A stretch of 55,397 bases of DNA, taken from positions 1 to 55,397 of the forward strand of contig CALJEJ010000025.1 in NCBI GenBank assembly GCA_938074745.1, in the 5' to 3' direction. This document shows positions 2,803 through 35,830 of the stretch, piece after piece; within the stretch, counting starts at the first letter, position 1; each line of letters begins with the position of its first letter. The stretch comes from an uncultured Endomicrobiia bacterium. Lineage in GTDB: Bacteria > Elusimicrobiota > Endomicrobiia > DTEH01. The notes under the pieces are model-generated. The model was not told the origin of the DNA. It saw only the letters and a program-made list of their open reading frames with translations, and searched no databases. The position numbers and the translations under genes were made by a program.

Positions 2803-3564
2803 TTAGAAATTGTGCCTGTATGAATTAAGTATTATAAAAACTGACAATATTGTAATTTCGGCAATTTCGTTAATCGCACCGATAGAATCGCCTGTCATAC
2901 CGCCAATTTTTTTAGTTAAAAATTTAGTAGTAATAATAACAACCAACACGGAAAATACAATCATAGCAATTGCAACGATTATGTTAAAAAACAACATAGC
3001 CACTATAACACAAACTATAGTTGAAATTGCTAAACTTTTCATATTTGTATTTTCGATAAAAAGTTTTCCGAGCCCATCTGGTTTTGCAGGTTTTGAAAAA
3101 AACATTGACACTACCATACAGTATCTTGAAATAACTGGAAAAATTAACAAAATATTCTGAAAGATTCCGACAGGAATTTTATATAGTAAAACAAACTTTA
3201 GTAGAATATCACACACAATTGCAACAACTCCTTCTGCACCGATATGGCTATCTGACATAACTAAAAGAATCTTTGTTTTATCTTTAATACTTGCTGAAAT
3301 ACCATCAACAGTATCTGATAATCCATCAAGGTGAAAACCGCCTGTAAGAATAATATAAATGACTAATACGAAACCAACAACTATTTCTCGAGGTAATAAT
3401 AAAAATTTCTCAAGTATCAAATCTAACAAAAAAAGTATCGCACCAAGAATTAAACCAACAAATGGAAAATATGCAGTTGTCAAAAAAGTTATTGAATAAC
3501 TCTTTATTGGCACAATTGTTAGAAAACTAATAGCAGAAAATAAATCTTTCATATTTATCATCAC
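2803..3564 (-). CDS. cobS: Adenosylcobinamide-GDP ribazoletransferase (cobalamin synthase)
   Basis: CobS joins adenosylcobinamide-GDP to alpha-ribazole (or its phosphate) and makes the last bond of the nucleotide loop of adenosylcobalamin at the cytoplasmic membrane. The protein has about 253 residues and several hydrophobic helices. It carries the family signature GGFHLDGLSDTVDGI near residues 75-90, whose Asp residues bind metal. A second glycine-rich acidic stretch, MTGDSIGAINE, lies near the C terminus. Candidate starts are GTG 3564, ATG 3561 and ATG 3552, and the sequence does not decide between them. It lies 16 bases after cobT and is the last recognised B12 biosynthesis gene before the HTH gene and the receptor. 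Confidence 0.95.
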   Translation of the reverse strand: MMINMKDLFSAISFLTIVPIKSYSITFLTTAYFPFVGLILGAILFLLDLILEKFLLLPREIVVGFVLVIYIILTGGFHLDGLSDTVDGISASIKDKTKILLVMSDSHIGAEGVVAIVCDILLKFVLLYKIPVGIFQNILLIFPVISRYCMVVSMFFSKPAKPDGLGKLFIENTNMKSLAISTIVCVIVAMLFFNIIVAIAMIVFSVLVVIITTKFLTKKIGGMTGDSIGAINEIAEITILSVFIILNSYRHNF

Positions 3565-3580
3565 TTTACGTGTTTACAAC

Positions 3581-4660
3581 TTACATTTTCTTTGTCACAC
3601 CAGCACTTTCAAACGTTGCCATTTCATTTAGAATTTTACAAGATACTTCTATAATACTCATTGCCAAACATGCACCTGTTCCTTCACCCAACCGCATATT
3701 TAAGTTTAGTATAGGTTTAATTCCAAGAAATTCAAGTTGAACTTTATGCCCGGGTTCTTCTGAAAGATGTCCTGCAAACATATACGGGATACATTTACAC
3801 GACAATGTTGCAGCGATTAACGCTCCTGCTGCAGAAACGAACCCGTCAATCACAACCGGTATTCTATTCGCTGCACAAGCAAGTATTACTCCTGCAATAC
3901 CACCTATCTCATACCCACCAAGTTTGTACAAAATATCAATCCCGTCAGTAATGTTAGGTTTGTTACACTCAATTGCCTTTTTTATTACTTCAATTTTAGT
4001 TTGATATGTTTTATTATCTATCCCTGTGCCATAACCTGTAACTTCTTCTACTGGTTTACCTGTAACAACTTGAGTAATTGCAGACGCAGAAGTCGTATTC
4101 CCTATACCCATATCACCTACCGCAATTAAACATATTTCATCTTTATGGAAAATTTTTTCTTTTAATAATTCTTCTACTAGTTCAATTCCTGTATTTATTG
4201 ATTTTATAGCTTCTTGTTTACTCATTGCAGGTCCTTTGACAAAATTTTTCGTCCCAAAAGAAATTTTTCTTAACTTAAATTTTTCATCTTGAATGTTCAA
4301 CTCTTTATCAACTCCAATGTCTACCACAATAACATCAGCACCAACATGTCGTGCAATAACATTTATTCCCGCACCACCATGAATAAAATTGTAAACCATC
4401 TGTGAAGTAACTTCTTTAGGATACGCAGAAACACCTTCTTGAGTAACCCCGTGGTCTGCCGCAAAAACAAATACTGTCTTACTGACTACTTTCGGAGATA
4501 ATTTGCCAGTGATACTACATACTTTTTTTACTATTTCTTCAAGATAACCTAATGAACCTATAGGTTTCGTGAGATTATCTAGACGTTTTTGTATTTCTGG
4601 AATTATTTGTTCATCTATAGGAGAAATTTTTGTTATTGTGTTATTAATTTTTTCCATCAT
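3581..4660 (-). CDS. cobT: Nicotinate-nucleotide:dimethylbenzimidazole phosphoribosyltransferase
   Basis: CobT activates the lower-ligand base by transferring phosphoribose from nicotinate mononucleotide, giving alpha-ribazole phosphate for CobS. At about 359 residues it has the usual family length. The motifs GDMGIGNTTSASAI, GFVSAAGALIAA and RLGEGTGACLA are all present, the last holding the catalytic Glu. Two adjacent ATG codons (4660 and 4657) could start it. The 5' end overlaps the DUF71 gene by 17 bases, which implies translational coupling. No gene for making dimethylbenzimidazole is seen in the window, so the base is probably scavenged or made elsewhere. Confidence 0.96.
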   Translation of the reverse strand: MMEKINNTITKISPIDEQIIPEIQKRLDNLTKPIGSLGYLEEIVKKVCSITGKLSPKVVSKTVFVFAADHGVTQEGVSAYPKEVTSQMVYNFIHGGAGINVIARHVGADVIVVDIGVDKELNIQDEKFKLRKISFGTKNFVKGPAMSKQEAIKSINTGIELVEELLKEKIFHKDEICLIAVGDMGIGNTTSASAITQVVTGKPVEEVTGYGTGIDNKTYQTKIEVIKKAIECNKPNITDGIDILYKLGGYEIGGIAGVILACAANRIPVVIDGFVSAAGALIAATLSCKCIPYMFAGHLSEEPGHKVQLEFLGIKPILNLNMRLGEGTGACLAMSIIEVSCKILNEMATFESAGVTKKM

Positions 4661-5357
4661 GTTTCACCTCTTTTTCTTCAACTGTGTATTTCTTAATATC
4701 TAAAAACCATGCAGACCAAAAAGTTTTTTTGAACACTTTCCGTGTAGCCAAAATTTTAATCTTTTTATTAAATATTGGTCCGTCATAAACAAATGTGTGG
4801 TATTCTCCGTTTTCTCCACAAGGACAAATTTTGTATTTTTTTATTTCTTTTAAAAAATTTTCGTTAATCTCTTTCCCGAGAAACTTCTGTGGTAAAAGTT
4901 TTGCATTTATACTTACTACTTTAGATTTAAACCCTAACGAAATAAACTCTTTTAACACTTCTAACACAGGTTTTTTCCATAACGGTTCTACTAATTTTAA
5001 TCCTACTTTCCTACATTGTTTTCTTATCCAATTAGGATGTTCCTCAAGATATATATCTCCACAAACAAAATATTCTATTCCTAAACTCTTTAACTTTTTT
5101 AACATTTTAATAAACTTTGTTTCATAAGATTTTTGTCCCTTACCAACTGTATATTGAAGTAAAGGTATACCCAAACATCTTGCCTGTAAAGAAATAACTT
5201 CCCGAGGAATGCCATGAAACGAACTTCGTCTAACTTTGCGAGAAATAAAATTTACTAAATATTTTACGTTATATCCTAATTGTAAAGCATACCATAAAGA
5301 TAAAGTAGAATCTTTTCCTCCACTAAAACTGCATGCTGCAAGTTTCTCTTTTTTCAT
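4644..5357 (-). CDS. DUF71/COG2102 PP-loop ATPase, B12-salvage type
   Basis: This is an ATP-pyrophosphatase of the adenine-nucleotide alpha-hydrolase fold, about 237 residues. The PP-loop CSFSGGKDSTLSLWYA is near the N terminus. The downstream SLGIEYFVCGDIYLEEH stretch is typical of the diphthine-ammonia-ligase-like family. Bacteria do not make diphthamide, and published comparative genomics assigned a bacterial branch of DUF71 to B12 salvage because of its clustering with such genes. Its position between cobU and cobT agrees. I chose ATG 5357 over the upstream frame start at 5381 because it overlaps the cobU stop as ATGA. The actual reaction, perhaps an amidation of a corrinoid side chain, is not known. 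Confidence 0.85.
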   Translation of the reverse strand: MKKEKLAACSFSGGKDSTLSLWYALQLGYNVKYLVNFISRKVRRSSFHGIPREVISLQARCLGIPLLQYTVGKGQKSYETKFIKMLKKLKSLGIEYFVCGDIYLEEHPNWIRKQCRKVGLKLVEPLWKKPVLEVLKEFISLGFKSKVVSINAKLLPQKFLGKEINENFLKEIKKYKICPCGENGEYHTFVYDGPIFNKKIKILATRKVFKKTFWSAWFLDIKKYTVEEKEVKHDGKN

Positions 5358-5863
5358 TTTATCCTTAAACTTATACCACAAAACATAAGATATACCCTAT
5401 CAGCATAACTTGCTAAAATTTGGTTAGTTTTGCCAAGCAACTCTTGAAACTTCCTACCTAATCTGTTTGTTGAAACTAAACTCATCCCTACTTCATTTGA
5501 AACCAATACTGACATTTTAAATTTTTTTAACTGTTTACATAAATTTTCAACCTCAGATAAAATATCTTTCTCATCATGATACTTTCCCATCATATTAGCA
5601 ACCCACATATTAACACAATCTATTATTATATTTGAACCTTTTGGAAGTTGAGATACTAACGATACAATTTTAATAGGTTCTTCTATAGTAATAAAATTTC
5701 TACTTCTGTTTTTCTGATGAAGTTCTATCTTTATTTTTATTTCTTTATCTACAGGTTTTGCTGTAGCAATAAAATATACATGTTCTTTTTTGTTAACCAG
5801 TGAACAAGCAAAATTTGATTTCCCACTTTTTATCCCGCCAGAAATTAAAATTATTTTATTCAT
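5354..5863 (-). CDS. cobU: Adenosylcobinamide kinase / guanylyltransferase
   Basis: CobU phosphorylates adenosylcobinamide and then transfers GMP to it, preparing it for CobS. The protein has 169 residues and begins with the P-loop ISGGIKSGKSNFA. The GTP-binding stretch IIDCVNMWVANM and the conserved VSNEVGMSLVS and GRKFQELLGKTNQ segments follow, in family order. It lies six bases after cobA and overlaps the DUF71 gene by four bases (ATGA). It serves salvage of incomplete corrinoids as well as complete synthesis. No corrin-ring synthesis genes accompany it here. Confidence 0.95.
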   Translation of the reverse strand: MNKIILISGGIKSGKSNFACSLVNKKEHVYFIATAKPVDKEIKIKIELHQKNRSRNFITIEEPIKIVSLVSQLPKGSNIIIDCVNMWVANMMGKYHDEKDILSEVENLCKQLKKFKMSVLVSNEVGMSLVSTNRLGRKFQELLGKTNQILASYADRVYLMFCGISLRIK

Positions 5864-5868
5864 AATTT

Positions 5869-6405
5869 TTAATATTCTATACCTTTCCGTATTAAAATTT
5901 TTTTGTCATAAGGATGTTTTATTTTTTTTATATACGAAATATAATCAACATACTTTTTAAGTTTTTGGACAATTTTTTTATCTGATTGACCTGTTAAAAC
6001 CAGTTCTGTATTTTCTGGTTTTGATTTTAAAAGTTTTACCAGTTGACTTATGGATAAAAGTTTTTCTCTAACACAAACAAGTATTTCATCAAGTACTATC
6101 AAATCAAAGTTTTTATTAAAAATTTCGTTTTTGATAAAATTTATACTCGTAACAATTTCTTGCTTTATTAATTTTTTGTCATATTTTTTGTCAAAATAAG
6201 GACATATTTTAGCAAAATTGTAAATTTTTAAATTATGCAATTTTTTTAAAATATTAAACTCTCCATATCCGTATTTTTTAGGGTCTTTTTGAAAAGTTAT
6301 ATAACATACCTTAAATTTATGTCCTAACATACGAATTGTTAACCCAACCGCAGCAGTTGTTTTACCTTTACCATCACCCGTGTAGACATGTATTAATCTT
6401 TTCAT
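5869..6405 (-). CDS. cobA: Corrinoid adenosyltransferase (CobA/CobO type)
   Basis: This enzyme transfers the adenosyl group of ATP to cob(I)alamin or cobinamide. It has the CobA/CobO-family P-loop, HVYTGDGKGKTTAAVGL, at the very N terminus, and a Walker-B-like DLIVLDEILVCV in the middle. I place the start at ATG 6405, not at the frame start 6459, because AGGAGAG lies about ten bases before 6405 and the P-loop then falls at the usual distance. That gives 178 residues, close to the family norm. It lies between the transporter ATPase gene and cobU, so imported corrinoid is adenosylated at once. Confidence 0.93.
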   Translation of the reverse strand: MKRLIHVYTGDGKGKTTAAVGLTIRMLGHKFKVCYITFQKDPKKYGYGEFNILKKLHNLKIYNFAKICPYFDKKYDKKLIKQEIVTSINFIKNEIFNKNFDLIVLDEILVCVREKLLSISQLVKLLKSKPENTELVLTGQSDKKIVQKLKKYVDYISYIKKIKHPYDKKILIRKGIEY

Positions 6406-6446
6406 AAAAAACTTTTCTCTCCTGTATTTTTGGTATAATAGAAAAA

Positions 6447-7226
6447 TCATTTTTTCCACATCATAGGAACAGGAAATACATACGGTTTGTCTGAAACAGG
6501 ATTAGTTTTTACTATAACAGTTGTTTTATACACTTCTTCTAAAATCTTATAATCTACAACTTCTTGTGGTGAACCCATTTTTCTTATTTCGCCATTGGAA
6601 AGAAGAATTATTTTATCACAATATTCTACTGCTAAATTAAGTTCGTGGAATGTTGACAATACTGTAATCTTTTGTTCCATACTAACCTTTTTTATAAAAT
6701 CAAGTATTGTAACTTGATGTGCAATATCCAAATGTGAGACAGGTTCATCTAAAAGTAACAATTTAGGAGTCTGAATAATACTTTGTGCTATAATTACCCT
6801 TTGTAATTCTCCGCTTGAAAGTTCACAAAGTTTTTTGTTTAATAAACTTTGTATTTCTAATGATGTAATAATTTGAGAATAGATATTTAAATACGATTCT
6901 TTTTCTCTAAACGGGAACCGAGCTAATAACAAAAATTCTTCTACAGAATATTTAAGCGAATAATCGGAAATTTTTGTTGCAAAAGCAACTAATGTTGCAT
7001 ATTTTGTAAATGTGTAGTTTTTTATATTTTGGTTGAATAAAAAAATCTCGCCTTCCCATATAGGTAAAATTTTATCAATGACTTTTAACAAAGTTGTCTT
7101 TCCTGAACCGTTAGGCCCGATTATCCCTATAAATTCGCCAACGTGAAGTTCAAAATTGATATTCCTTAACACAGGGAAATTTTTATATCCTGTAACTAAA
7201 TTTTTTATAGATAGAACAATACTCAT
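6447..7226 (-). CDS. btuD: Cobalamin ABC transporter ATP-binding protein
   Basis: This is the cytoplasmic ATPase of a type II ABC importer, 259 residues. It has Walker A GPNGSGKTT (about 36-44), the signature LSSGELQR, Walker B LLLLDEP with the following SHLDIAHQ, and a switch His in STFHELNLA. The ATG overlaps the stop of the permease gene as ATGA, so the two are translationally coupled. Siderophore ATPases of the FepC group look the same. The cobalamin riboswitch and the cob genes downstream decide for corrinoid uptake. Confidence 0.92.
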   Translation of the reverse strand: MSIVLSIKNLVTGYKNFPVLRNINFELHVGEFIGIIGPNGSGKTTLLKVIDKILPIWEGEIFLFNQNIKNYTFTKYATLVAFATKISDYSLKYSVEEFLLLARFPFREKESYLNIYSQIITSLEIQSLLNKKLCELSSGELQRVIIAQSIIQTPKLLLLDEPVSHLDIAHQVTILDFIKKVSMEQKITVLSTFHELNLAVEYCDKIILLSNGEIRKMGSPQEVVDYKILEEVYKTTVIVKTNPVSDKPYVFPVPMMWKK

Positions 7227-8194
7227 AAAGTTATCTTAGATTTCTTAATATAGAAGATAAAAAATACACTACCCAAAATTCCCGTAAATACACTTATTGG
7301 TATCTCTATAGGGTAAAGTATGTTCCGGGACAAATTGTCTGCAATTGAAACAAACACTGCACCTGTTATTGCGGAAAATAAAATCCATCTGTTATGTTTT
7401 AATCCTACGAATGTTTTCATCATATTAGGAACTATAATCCCAACAAACATAATCACTCCAGATAAAGAAATACAAAAAGTTGAGATAAGAATTACTAAAG
7501 TCAACAAAATTTTTTTTAGTTTTATTTCATCTACTCCTAATGAAATAGATTTTTCTTTCCCTAAAACTAAAATATCCAGTTGGTCCGAATATATTAAAAT
7601 TATCACTATGCACATAGCAATTATTAATGAACAGAGATATACTTCTTTTGTATCTATTCCAGAAAATCCGCCAAGCAACCACAAAAGCACATAATGTAAC
7701 CTGTACGGTTCTATAAACAAAGTTAGCATTACTATCAAACCAGAAAACAAGTAATTTAATACTATCCCTGTAAGAACAAAACCTATATCTATGGTTTTAT
7801 GGAAAATCAATGTCAGCAGATAAATTGCACTGAAAGCAATAATTATACTAATCGTCGACATCAGAAATTTCCCTATTGGTAATTTCAATATCAATCCTAA
7901 CACCACTCCTAACGCTGCAGCAGAAGAAATTCCCAAAGTATAACTTTCACACAACGGGTTTAAAAAAATACTTTGTAATACACACCCTGCAACTGCTAAC
8001 CCCGCACCTACAATATATGTCGCAACAGTTCTTGGTATTCTAATCTGTGTTAAAATTTTATACTCTACATTATTTGTATCTCTGTTTACCAACAAACTTA
8101 TTATTTTGGGTATTGAAAAAAAGTGTTTTCCTAACATTATAGAAAATATAAAATTAGCAATTAATAAAAAAATTAAAAAGTAATACTTCTTCAT
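7223..8194 (-). CDS. btuC: Cobalamin ABC transporter permease (FecCD/BtuC family)
   Basis: The protein has 323 residues and about nine to ten membrane helices. Family landmarks include LTQIRIPRTVATYIVGAGLA near the N terminus, VLQSIFLNPLCESYTLGISS, and GVIMFVGIIVPNMMKTFVG, which holds the loop that contacts the ATPase. It lies 18 bases downstream of btuF and overlaps btuD by four bases. With BtuF and BtuD it forms the inner-membrane importer for cobamides that the outer-membrane receptor delivers to the periplasm. Confidence 0.93.
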   Translation of the reverse strand: MKKYYFLIFLLIANFIFSIMLGKHFFSIPKIISLLVNRDTNNVEYKILTQIRIPRTVATYIVGAGLAVAGCVLQSIFLNPLCESYTLGISSAAALGVVLGLILKLPIGKFLMSTISIIIAFSAIYLLTLIFHKTIDIGFVLTGIVLNYLFSGLIVMLTLFIEPYRLHYVLLWLLGGFSGIDTKEVYLCSLIIAMCIVIILIYSDQLDILVLGKEKSISLGVDEIKLKKILLTLVILISTFCISLSGVIMFVGIIVPNMMKTFVGLKHNRWILFSAITGAVFVSIADNLSRNILYPIEIPISVFTGILGSVFFIFYIKKSKITL

Positions 8195-8212: not shown

Positions 8213-9061
8213 TTACTGTGATTGTAAGTTTACTTCATATTTTCTTACACTTATTTTTAACTTCCTTTTAATTTCTTTAACAGAAATCCAAAAATTTTTT
8301 ATTGTAGGTTGACAAAAAATGTTGCTATTTAAAATGAATATATTATCATTCTTAACTGCTCTAATCTGAGAATATTTATTCTTAAAAAATTGTTTTATGT
8401 ATTTTTCATTATATCCCATATCTGTCACAAAAATAATATCTGGGTCGCACCTAACCATTTCTTCAACACTTATACGAGGATATTTTATTGAAGAGACAAT
8501 ACAATTTTTTACACCAACAAAAGAGATTATCTCTCCTAAATAACTTTTAGAAGAAGCTACTATCAACGGTTCTAAACTTACAACACATAAAGTTTTTAAT
8601 TTGTAAGGAAATTTTTCTTGATATTCCTGCTGATAGTATCTCTCATAATAAAGGACAACACTTTTTGCTATAGATTTTTTAGCTAAGATCTCAGCTAATT
8701 TAAGAAACTGTTCTACAAGTTCTGTATAAGTATTTACAGGTTCAAACGTGTATACTTTTATATTAAACCGTTCAATTTGTTCTACAATTTCTTTTTGTAC
8801 TCCTTCTTTTGAAATAAAAACAATATCAGGTGCTAACTGAACAATCCTTTCAATATTAGGCTGAAGGTACGTCCCTACAATTTGCTGTTCAGGGTAAAGT
8901 TTACGACAAAAACTTGTTATCCCAACAACTTTCCTACCTTCGTTAAGCAAATACAACTGTTCTGTAATAGATGGTGTTAAAGAAACGATCCTTTTTATTT
9001 CTGAAGAGACTAATGAACTTAGAAAAAACAAAAAAGTTATTACTGAAAATATTTTTCTCAT
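8213..9061 (-). CDS. btuF: Periplasmic cobalamin-binding protein
   Basis: A signal peptide (about residues 1-20, ending SLVSS) leads a class III periplasmic binding protein of 282 residues. The N-terminal lobe begins RIVSLTPSITEQLYLLNEG, and the family feature LAPDIVFIS follows. The C-terminal lobe contains CDPDIIFVTDMGY. There is no lipobox Cys, so the protein is probably soluble in the periplasm. It is the first gene after the cobalamin riboswitch, about 100 bases downstream of the aptamer. The same fold binds heme and siderophores, but the riboswitch strongly supports a corrinoid ligand. Confidence 0.92.
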   Translation of the reverse strand: MRKIFSVITFLFFLSSLVSSEIKRIVSLTPSITEQLYLLNEGRKVVGITSFCRKLYPEQQIVGTYLQPNIERIVQLAPDIVFISKEGVQKEIVEQIERFNIKVYTFEPVNTYTELVEQFLKLAEILAKKSIAKSVVLYYERYYQQEYQEKFPYKLKTLCVVSLEPLIVASSKSYLGEIISFVGVKNCIVSSIKYPRISVEEMVRCDPDIIFVTDMGYNEKYIKQFFKNKYSQIRAVKNDNIFILNSNIFCQPTIKNFWISVKEIKRKLKISVRKYEVNLQSQ

Positions 9062-9164
9062 TTTAAAACAAAATAAAAAAATTTGTTAAATTATTTCCCC
9101 GGATGGAATTTGTTAAAAGGAAAGAAAATACGTAAGAGGTATAATAAAGCAAGCCATTTTCTTC

Positions 9165-9292
9165 CCCTCCCATCGCGGGTACTTCCTAGGTTCAACGATA
9201 GACCGGACTCGTCCTATACCTAAATATTATAGGTTAGGCATCACCGTTGCGTGGGCAGTAATGGATTCTCACCATTTTCCCCCGTTGAACCA
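9165..9292 (-). promoter_or_regulatory. Cobalamin riboswitch
   Basis: Read on the minus strand, an outer stem pairs GGTTCAACG (9292-9284) with CGTTGAACC (9196-9188). Inside are the B12-box elements GGAAAATGGTGAGAATCC and TGCCCACGCAACGGTGATG, a variable hairpin, and GAGTCCGGTC before the closing strand. Beyond the aptamer, CCCGCGATGGG forms a small hairpin suited to the kissing loop and expression platform. No T-tract terminator follows, so control is probably of translation of btuF, shutting down uptake and salvage when cobalamin is plentiful. Confidence 0.92.
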
Positions 9293-9321
9293 GTTTGTCA
9301 AAACAAGAGAATTAATGTAAA

Positions 9322-9349
9322 AGTATAAATTTTGAATACAATATGTCAA
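9322..9349 (-). promoter_or_regulatory. Promoter of the B12 salvage operon
   Basis: On the minus strand TTGACA (9349-9344) and TATACT (9327-9322) are 16 bases apart. Transcription would begin near 9315, about 20 bases before the riboswitch. The position is as expected for the btuF-to-cobS unit, and the opposite flank is the end of the psiE-like gene. Confidence 0.6.
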
Positions 9350-33158: not shown

Positions 33159-33186
33159 ATTATAAAATTTAGGAAGATAAAGTCAA
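33159..33186 (-). promoter_or_regulatory. Promoter of the pal-tol operon
   Basis: On the minus strand TTGACT (33186-33181) and TATAAT (33164-33159) are 16 bases apart. It lies just downstream of the mdcA-like stop and drives pal, cpoB, tolA and tolB with a leader of about 100 bases. Confidence 0.6.
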
Positions 33187-33202: not shown

Positions 33203-34801
33203 TTATATCCTTGTTTTGGGCGGGACGTATAATCCTTTTGACCATTTAACTATATCGTCAAAAGTTTGTGCTGAAAGTAAACCACGGGTTGCATCTTTAG
33301 GATTGATACCTAAATCTTCCGGATAAAACACTATTTTTCTATCACGCAAATTTTTTATCTGCGATTTTGTAATTTTTTTTCCTACTACAGTATCGCCTGC
33401 AATTGATGATATAGCCAACATCCTCGTTTTTAAATCAGGACATTTATGTAAACATGCGATACCCCGTTCCGTAACAATATGTGTAATCTGATCACCATAA
33501 ATCATTATCGGTGCTTGGGACAAAATTTTTTGTTTCACAAATTTTACAGCGTCAAGTTCTTCTACAAAAACAGGGATACCTTTAGGTGTTACCGTAGGCG
33601 TGATCTGGACAACAAGTTTTCTGTTCCCACATTTTAAAAAACTTTCAGAGAAATGTCTTCTTCCGGGCGGTGTGGAACCTAAATTAGGTGCACCGCCAAA
33701 CCCTGCAACCCTTCCTAAAGTTGCAGTAGAACTGTTCCCGAACTGGTCAATTTGTAAAGTAGAACCGATAAACAAATCAATCCCGTAAAGTCCTGCAAGA
33801 TGTGCGTATACACGGTTGGATTTTAACACACCGTCAGGTCCTACACTGAAAATGTTTTTTCTGTATTTTATATATTCCTCCATTCCGGGTTCACCACCAA
33901 AACTGTAAATCCTTTCTACAAACGACGATTCTATTGCAGGTATAAGTGTAGGATGAGGGTTTAACACCCAATGAGTTACATACTTACCTCTCATACCCAA
34001 TCGTGTTCCATAAGTCGGTAAAATAAGTTCAATTGCAGCCGTTGCATTACCGACCCCGTGGTTCAAACTTCTGACTTTATAAGGAATGTATATTCCTTTT
34101 AGCACCATCATTGCCATTAATATCTGTGTTTCTGTAATTTTTTCAGGGTCGCGAGTAAACAACGGTTGGATATAATATGGTTGACCTGTTTCAACAATGA
34201 AATCTACATAATCTTTAGGGATATCTACACGGGGCAATTTTTTTACCACGTTTTTTACCTGAGCAATAACAATACCAAACTTTGTCTTTGTCGCTTCTAC
34301 AATAACAGGTGTATCTTCTGTATTAAACCCGGTATAAAGATTACCTTCTTTATCTGCAGAATCTGCAACAACCAAACTTACATCCGGAGTTAAATCAATA
34401 AAATATCTGGAATAAAGTTCTATATAAGTGTTTATAGCACCAAGTTGGACTGTTTTGCTTGTTATAATTTCAGCAAGATTTTTTGCTTGTGGGCCAGAAT
34501 ATGAAAAATCTAATTTTGAAACAATCCCTGAAGACAAAATTTTTATATGTTCAGGTAACACTATTGACGACTGGACTAAATGTATATTATTTACTTTTTT
34601 AGGGTCTAAAGAAGAAAATTCTTTTGCTAAAAAATCTGCTTGTTTCTGATTGTCTCCTTCAAGACAAACTTTGTCTCCTGAATATATAACTGTCTCTAAT
34701 AATTTACGAACAAAATTTTTAGGGACAAATTTCGTATTTTTTATAACATACTTTTTTGCTGATTTAATTTTTTTTAGATATGTTTTATAAAAATCTTTCA
34801 T
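33203..34801 (-). CDS. mdcA: Malonate decarboxylase alpha subunit homologue (acyl-CoA transferase), standing alone
   Basis: The 532-residue protein matches MdcA throughout. VCLEGDNQKQADFLAKEF is near residue 50, LDFSYSGPQAKNLAEIIT follows, then NLYTGFNTEDTPVIVEATK, YYIQPLFTRDPEKI, LNPHPTLIPAIESSFVE and GNSSTATLGRVAGFGGAPN. MdcA normally swaps acetyl for malonyl on the decarboxylase carrier protein, but the genes for the carrier and other subunits (mdcB, C, D, E, G, H) are absent here. I place the start at ATG 34801 because it overlaps the aldolase stop as ATGA; the earlier frame start (34813) also exists. It may be a CoA-transferase with a different acceptor, working with the aldolase. That is inference. 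Confidence 0.85.
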   Translation of the reverse strand: MKDFYKTYLKKIKSAKKYVIKNTKFVPKNFVRKLLETVIYSGDKVCLEGDNQKQADFLAKEFSSLDPKKVNNIHLVQSSIVLPEHIKILSSGIVSKLDFSYSGPQAKNLAEIITSKTVQLGAINTYIELYSRYFIDLTPDVSLVVADSADKEGNLYTGFNTEDTPVIVEATKTKFGIVIAQVKNVVKKLPRVDIPKDYVDFIVETGQPYYIQPLFTRDPEKITETQILMAMMVLKGIYIPYKVRSLNHGVGNATAAIELILPTYGTRLGMRGKYVTHWVLNPHPTLIPAIESSFVERIYSFGGEPGMEEYIKYRKNIFSVGPDGVLKSNRVYAHLAGLYGIDLFIGSTLQIDQFGNSSTATLGRVAGFGGAPNLGSTPPGRRHFSESFLKCGNRKLVVQITPTVTPKGIPVFVEELDAVKFVKQKILSQAPIMIYGDQITHIVTERGIACLHKCPDLKTRMLAISSIAGDTVVGKKITKSQIKNLRDRKIVFYPEDLGINPKDATRGLLSAQTFDDIVKWSKGLYVPPKTRI

Positions 34802-35490
34802 TTTAATACACAACTTTTTTCACAAGTGTTACACTGTGGTAAAGGTCCTTTGAAACCAAGTTCTTCTCTTAATTTCATCAACGATTCAAATTGTTGTTTA
34901 GACAAGACATCAACTTTACCTAAATTCCGTGCAAGGTATATTACTTGCGCTAAATGTTCAACTTTTTCTAACCGATGGTACGCTGAAGTTACCGTAGAAC
35001 CAATTGTTACCACACCATGATTTTTTAACAAGAAAGCGTTAAAATCAGTTATATATTTTTTTAAAGAATTTGGCAGTTCTTCTGTATACAATGTAGCATA
35101 TTCTGTTAACGGAACACCGCCTAAGCTAAGAACAACTTCCGGTAAAACACATTCCATTAACGGTATCCCTGCAACAGAAAACGCTGTTGCATACGGCGGG
35201 TGTGCATGAACTACTGCGTTAACATCTTCTCGTTCTTTATAAACCATAAGATGCATCCTGTATTCTCCTGAGGGTTGTAAACTACCTGAAATTTTTTTAC
35301 CATCTAAATCTATAACTACCAAATCTTGAACTTCTATAGAACCTTTACTTTTGTTGCTCGGAGTAATGATTATTTCTTTTTCACCTATCCGTGCGGAAAC
35401 ATTCCCGTCTGTAGCTGAAACTAACCCACGAAAATACATCTGTTTACAAACTTCTACAATTTCTTTTTTTATATAAAAAATTGAACTCAT
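34798..35490 (-). CDS. Class II aldolase/adducin-family protein, L-fuculose-phosphate-aldolase-like
   Basis: This 230-residue zinc enzyme cleaves or dehydrates phosphorylated ketoses in the aldol class. It has LVSATDGNVSARIGEKEIII at the N-terminal side, the metal ligands in VVHAHPPYATAFS, and a later His in FLLKNHGVVTIGS. The C terminus has an unusual CNTCEKSC tail. The start is ATG 35490. The frame reaches back to 35538, but those extra 16 codons are tRNA-Arg sequence. It lies 21 bases after the tRNA and overlaps mdcA by four bases. Substrates such as methylthioribulose-phosphate or a ketose-phosphate cannot be told apart by sequence. Confidence 0.85.
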   Translation of the reverse strand: MSSIFYIKKEIVEVCKQMYFRGLVSATDGNVSARIGEKEIIITPSNKSKGSIEVQDLVVIDLDGKKISGSLQPSGEYRMHLMVYKEREDVNAVVHAHPPYATAFSVAGIPLMECVLPEVVLSLGGVPLTEYATLYTEELPNSLKKYITDFNAFLLKNHGVVTIGSTVTSAYHRLEKVEHLAQVIYLARNLGKVDVLSKQQFESLMKLREELGFKGPLPQCNTCEKSCVLK

Positions 35491-35511
35491 CACAGGACAA
35501 AATTTTCTTCT

Positions 35512-35585
35512 CGCGCCCAGCAGGAATTGAACCTGCAACCTGCGGGTTCGAAGCCCGACGCTCTATCCAATTGAGCTATGGGCGC
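35512..35585 (-). tRNA. tRNA-Arg (TCG anticodon)
   Basis: A 74-base cloverleaf has acceptor stem GCGCCCA with TGGGCGC, anticodon loop CTTCGAA and T arm TTCAATT. The discriminator is G and no CCA is encoded. The top pair of the anticodon stem is a T-C mismatch. It lies 21 bases before the class II aldolase start and is probably the first element of that transcript. Confidence 0.93.
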
Positions 35586-35612
35586 AATATAATTTTGAAG
35601 AACACTACAAAA

Positions 35613-35741: not shown

Positions 35742-35767
35742 GTAAACGGCGTTTAAACGCCGTCTAT
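35742..35767. repeat. 26-base palindromic repeat, variant core GTTTAAAC
   Basis: The unit has ACGGC and GCCGT arms around the palindromic core GTTTAAAC, with two mismatches near the outer ends. It is a sister of 35805-35830, which has the same arms but a different, still palindromic, core. Confidence 0.7.
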
Positions 35768-35804: not shown

Positions 35805-35830
35805 GTAGACGGCAATTAATTGCCGTCTAC
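35805..35830. repeat. 26-base perfect palindrome, core AATTAATT
   Basis: Thirteen bases are followed at once by their exact reverse complement. The outer arms GTAGACGGC and GCCGTCTAC enclose AATTAATT. As a transcript it would form a hairpin without a T tract, so a simple terminator is unlikely. Confidence 0.75.

Follow-up and report, generated by a model that had tools for sequence, protein, structure and literature searches.

The stretch of DNA analysed here, termed the window, comprises 55,397 nucleotides of contig CALJEJ010000025.1 (assembly GCA_938074745.1) from an uncultured Endomicrobiia bacterium, and this report concerns three adjoining features on its reverse strand. In the direction of reading, these are a tRNA-Arg(TCG) at 35511-35586 (ARAGORN), a class II aldolase gene at 34798-35490 (230 amino acids; PF00596), and a lone MdcA-like gene at 33203-34801 (532 amino acids from its ATG), assigned to a carrier-free clade by PF16957, its TIGR01110 score and a tree. 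The TGA stop of the aldolase and the ATG start of MdcA overlap as ATGA. A preliminary description of this DNA had given the coordinates exactly, and both the overlap and the upstream tRNA that it reported are confirmed by the sequence and by ARAGORN. In all three mdcA-bearing genomes of this family, the locus is preceded by a tRNA-like sequence, recognized by reading the DNA, whose anticodon region is the same.

The aldolase is possibly co-transcribed with mdcA. Beyond mdcA, the gap to pal contains a promoter-like site (33159-33186, reverse strand), recognized by consensus match alone (11/12), which suggests that pal may have its own transcript. On the other side, the 400-base gap between the tRNA-Arg and a PASTA-domain-like gene holds two palindromes of terminator-like appearance, AACGGCGTTTAAACGCCGTC (35745-35764) and GACGGCAATTAATTGCCGTC (35808-35827), where the chance expectation for long palindromes is none. 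Elsewhere in the window, a cobalamin riboswitch (Rfam RF00174, 37.1 bits; 9157-9323, reverse strand) lies upstream of genes read as BtuF- (8213-9061), BtuC- (7223-8194) and BtuD-like (6447-7226) importer parts and as a cob(I)alamin adenosyltransferase-like protein (5869-6459), although methylmalonyl-CoA mutase is missing in the genome.

MdcA identity and the search for its partners

The assignment to MdcA is firm at the family level: the protein scores 765 bits against PF16957, above the gathering score and over model positions 11-541 of 546, and matches the solved MdcA chains 5vit and 6mpr over their full length. Against the mdcA equivalog model TIGR01110, it reaches 727 bits, under the cut-off of 789. 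MdcA normally functions only within a multi-part malonate-degrading enzyme, and the preliminary description had claimed that here the gene stands alone. Family-by-family profile searches of the window genome (1.52 Mb, 93.9% complete) bear this out, with one PF16957 gene and no second mdcA. Neither an MdcC-type carrier (PF06857) nor MdcE (PF06833) was found by profile search in the five genomes of the family (G000-G004), although such searches could miss a strongly diverged carrier; two relatives, G002 and G003, likewise have one MdcA each and lack both families. Within the window, tblastn with Hyphomicrobium references returned no protein resembling MdcC, MdcD, MdcE, MdcG, MdcB or MdcH. The absence of mdcC and mdcE thus holds at genome scope, and that of mdcB, mdcD, mdcG and mdcH at window scope. 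As loci of the PVC group are in the same state (see below), the lone gene proves to be of a general kind.

A clade of lone MdcA proteins

Following G002, a contig scan yielded ten loci of interest at 55-61% identity, labelled as PVC group, Verrucomicrobia, Lentisphaerae, Kiritimatiellae or plain bacterium. Genes for MdcC, MdcD, MdcE, MdcG, MdcB and MdcH were missing from the examined flanks of all ten, and profile search found no PF06857 carrier in any of the ten genomes, whereas at 65 other loci mdcC, mdcD and mdcE lie beside mdcA. Moreover, no neighbour gene is conserved clade-wide at the lone loci; apart from a weak cluster of repeat proteins, genes recur only between close relatives. In a midpoint-rooted tree, the window family and the lone PVC proteins form one clade (support 100/99), with the Endomicrobia family nested inside it (100/98); the operonic sample in this comparison is mostly Pseudomonadota, with Methylobacterium and Burkholderia prevailing and distant rows being few, and the clade genomes are mostly fragmentary MAGs. 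Independently of the tree, TIGR01110 scores separate the clade from other MdcA proteins: the window protein and six clade members score 705-762 bits, all below the cut-off, while four others (two operonic, two lone from Dialister and Pyramidobacter) score 887-948.

The lone branch occurs mostly in poorly known anaerobes, and in the class of one member (L009) mdcA is present in 18 of 346 genomes. Because mdcA is also rare in the window's own phylum (3/341 genomes, all three of the window's family), transfer into the family is the simplest account, and its donor was probably a PVC-type lineage. Among the three mdcA-bearing genera, dN is ~0.21 and dS ~1.7, giving a dN/dS of ~0.12 with dS near saturation; the lone mdcA is under purifying selection. 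The carrier-free branch is apparently undescribed so far; we found no literature joining Kiritimatiellae with malonate decarboxylase, in a search that had most subscription journals outside its scope.

The clade can further be characterized by residue changes, mapped on 5vit numbering across 23 clade rows and 67 operonic rows including 5vit itself, with malonate ligands and MdcC-interface residues taken from the Pseudomonas malonate decarboxylase structure paper (PMC5534430). The lone clade retains N59, Y134, R228, N258, N292, F312, R341 and G381. In the window protein, the malonate site (Asn59, Tyr134, Asn292, Phe312, Arg341 and Gln345) is kept throughout except that Gln345, which hydrogen-bonds the C1 carboxylate of malonate (PMC5534430), is replaced by His. 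The codon of this His334 lies at 33800-33802, and that of Arg330, equivalent to the Arg341 that pairs ionically with malonate C1, at 33812-33814 (both on the reverse strand, by alignment to 5vit). Position 345 is His in 21/23 clade rows, whereas every one of the 67 operonic rows has Gln. Nearby changes comprise C344A, M385L and W305F; M385L is also a fixed clade difference, as is E422P. At the interface with MdcC, F424 and E466, both probed by mutation (PMC5534430), are invariant in operonic sequences (n=66) and mostly replaced in the lone proteins, the window MdcA carrying V and R, respectively. A further fixed difference is an acidic residue at position 155, seen in every lone row shown; an AlphaFold model built with eight sequences is too poor for geometry (pLDDT 49). 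Two lone proteins that branch close to the base, L134 and L135, retain Gln345 and have lost the MdcC contact F424. They are candidates for an intermediate state in the alignment, and as they carry Gln, the change to His either did not occur at the base of the clade or has reverted.

The aldolase and its link to mdcA

The upstream gene matches PF00596 with 175 bits (model 2-182 of 183), above the gathering score, and falls under every NCBIfam cut-off among the matches listed. Its nearest solved relatives are fuculose-phosphate aldolases: with 4c24, 6btd and 1fua of the L-fuculose-phosphate aldolase family it shares the Aldolase_II domain and the HAH and NHG motifs, but it differs from them in having PSGE instead of PSSE and a Cys tail. 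This C-terminal CxxCxxxC tail (34810-34833, reverse strand), noted in the preliminary description, is real and is a possible metal or redox site. It reads CNTCEKSC in the window and CDTCENMC in G002, of a sister genus, is missing from the aldolase copies of G001, G003 and G004, and is thus limited, among the copies examined, to the two aldolases linked to mdcA.

The preliminary description further proposed a two-enzyme route, in which the aldolase makes or consumes an acid that MdcA activates. Adjacency in two genera, the ATGA overlap in one and a Cys tail common to exactly those two aldolases speak for such a pairing, which we nevertheless consider very unlikely. The aldolase adjoins mdcA in two of the three mdcA-bearing Endomicrobia genomes, overlapping it in the window and preceding it by a 177-base gap in G002. 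In G003, however, the two genes lie apart, mdcA standing directly behind the tRNA-Arg-like sequence with no adjoining aldolase. The aldolase is a single-copy gene in all five family genomes and its five copies form one clade (SH-aLRT 97); G001 and G004 have it and lack mdcA, and the flanks examined at the PVC lone mdcA loci contain no aldolase. As a general link, the partnership is rejected on the basis of these genomes and loci. Furthermore, class II aldolases of this kind yield an aldehyde and dihydroxyacetone phosphate rather than acids, so an extra enzyme would be required. Because all five genomes have the aldolase, two of them without mdcA and one with the genes unlinked, the aldolase is a family inheritance and its adjacency to mdcA is local; it is probably a separate enzyme and merely a neighbour. 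In a related genus (g2; three genomes: L086, L087, L088), of which two genomes have no mdcA, the single aldolase lies behind psd-like and pssA-like genes, identified by reading their translations as phosphatidylserine decarboxylase and synthase. The lone MdcA, on the other hand, is a real part of a carrier-free branch, and the new aspect of the locus is MdcA rather than its pairing with an aldolase.

Proposed function and rival explanations

We consider it likely that the window protein is a carrier-independent CoA-transferase of the MdcA family, acting between acetyl-CoA and malonate or a close diacid. CoA would be moved directly (acetyl-CoA + acid = acyl-CoA + acetate, in either direction), and MdcC, MdcD and MdcE would not be needed. 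This agrees with the part of the preliminary description that foresaw CoA transfer onto an acid, although the acid would not be a product of the window aldolase. Acetyl-CoA can be used by MdcA subunits in isolation. In its classic form, MdcA acts as an ACP transferase, in which the acid and an acetyl thioester form a mixed anhydride before a thiol takes the acyl group (PMC5534430). By analogy, an acid gripped at its far carboxylate by Arg330 (R341) would attack the thioester, and the resulting mixed anhydride would hand its acyl group to the free CoA thiol. As no carrier was found, this thiol would most simply be that of free CoA, which would replace the carrier. Since all ligands but one are retained, the acid may well be malonate or a near relative, and the Dialister MdcA encoded behind the malonate transporter genes madL and madM offers a parallel that would support a malonate-type acid. 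In the clade genomes tested, searches for MadM found nothing, and malonate uptake by MadLM was rejected for the clade, this transporter being seen only in Dialister.

Compared with the MdcA of malonate decarboxylase (5vit, 6mpr, TIGR01110), the window protein is homologous along the full length of both domains and retains Arg341, Asn292, Phe312, Asn59 and Tyr134, but differs in that no carrier or MdcE was found in the family genomes searched, the MdcC contacts are lost, Gln345 has become His and the score lies below the TIGR01110 cut-off. With class I CoA-transferases (4-hydroxybutyrate, glutaconate) it has the superfamily fold in common, by homology through MdcA. Those enzymes rely on an acidic catalytic residue, in most cases Glu, that forms a covalent adduct with CoA, whereas the MdcA active site has no such residue (PMC5534430), and the MdcA ligand positions are almost unchanged in the window protein. 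The reaction proposed here is that of malonate CoA-transferase (EC 2.8.3.3), an activity that, according to PMC8307300, was reported for Pseudomonas ovalis and to which that paper assigns no KEGG orthology number; in the literature searched, the name malonate CoA-transferase occurs in two papers only. The clade could supply a sequence for this activity.

Several other readings were weighed against this one. The strongest, a lesser but serious possibility that overlaps with the preferred reading and differs in the acid alone, is that the substrate has switched from malonate and that Gln345His marks the change to a different acid, for instance succinate or a hydroxyacid. The near-fixation of His at a malonate-touching residue, accompanied by C344A, M385L and W305F, and the absence of MadM from the clade genomes tested fit this idea; the other malonate ligands are all retained, however, and His is able to bind a carboxylate. 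A role in succinate/propionyl-CoA metabolism is unlikely, and propionyl-CoA:succinate transfer within the methylmalonyl-CoA pathway was rejected, because methylmalonyl-CoA mutase is missing in the window genome and, with one exception, in every clade genome tested. It is unlikely that MdcA remains an ACP transferase whose carrier, be it the ordinary fatty-acid ACP or an MdcC that has diverged, is encoded at another place. Its mechanism is that of an ACP transferase (PMC5534430), and in a genome that is 93.9% complete a highly diverged carrier could evade PF06857, but the carrier family is absent from five family and ten PVC genomes and the MdcC contact residues have been lost in parallel.

Still less can be said for a replacement of acetyl-CoA carboxylase (ACC) by MdcA as the source of malonyl-CoA for fatty acid synthesis, which we regard as highly improbable. 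Malonate would indeed give malonyl-CoA as product, and a Dialister genome with a lone MdcA has no full-length ACC alpha subunit, but the window genome encodes ACC alpha, as do G002, G003 and nearly every clade genome tested, and the replacement was rejected on this ground. That mdcA merely survives, no longer of use, from a malonate decarboxylase operon acquired earlier is barely credible: the gene is rare in the phylum, likely acquired and missing from two genomes of its own family (G001 and G004), yet it is intact in three genera with the low dN/dS given above (at a dS close to saturation), and a whole PVC clade shows the same lone state.

Taken beyond the window, the carrier-independent reading leads to a more tentative and, in our view, somewhat doubtful proposal, namely that the clade has departed from the malonate decarboxylase complex to form a new subfamily of CoA-transferases, which works with free CoA and, through Gln345His, accepts an acid other than malonate. 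If true, PVC-group bacteria and some Endomicrobia would have a metabolic step that has so far gone undescribed. Lacking the carrier and its contacts, with a pocket intact but for one ligand, the clade offers a natural test case for the conversion of an ACP transferase into a CoA-transferase. Moreover, if the lone genes are annotated as ‘malonate decarboxylase’, malonate breakdown is predicted for anaerobes in which that complex is not seen.

Lone MdcA proteins outside this clade provide a second case. Those of Dialister and Pyramidobacter belong to another tree branch and have lost F424 and E466 while retaining Gln345; loss of the MdcC contacts thus accompanies carrier absence on two branches, and the His change is specific to the clade. 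Dialister L014 shows the order madL-madM-mdcA at 3315-6355. Its MdcA resembles the window protein in its genome lacking a carrier and in the lost F424/E466 contacts, but differs in keeping Gln345, in scoring above the TIGR01110 cut-off, in its adjoining malonate transporter genes and in its branch. No full-length ACC alpha subunit was found in its genome, and Dialister L014 may make malonyl-CoA from imported malonate. In Pyramidobacter (L042, L077), mdcA stands alone, yet the genomes contain a PF06857 carrier; since this carrier adjoins a CitE-like gene in G352 (L117), it is probably the citrate lyase protein CitD.
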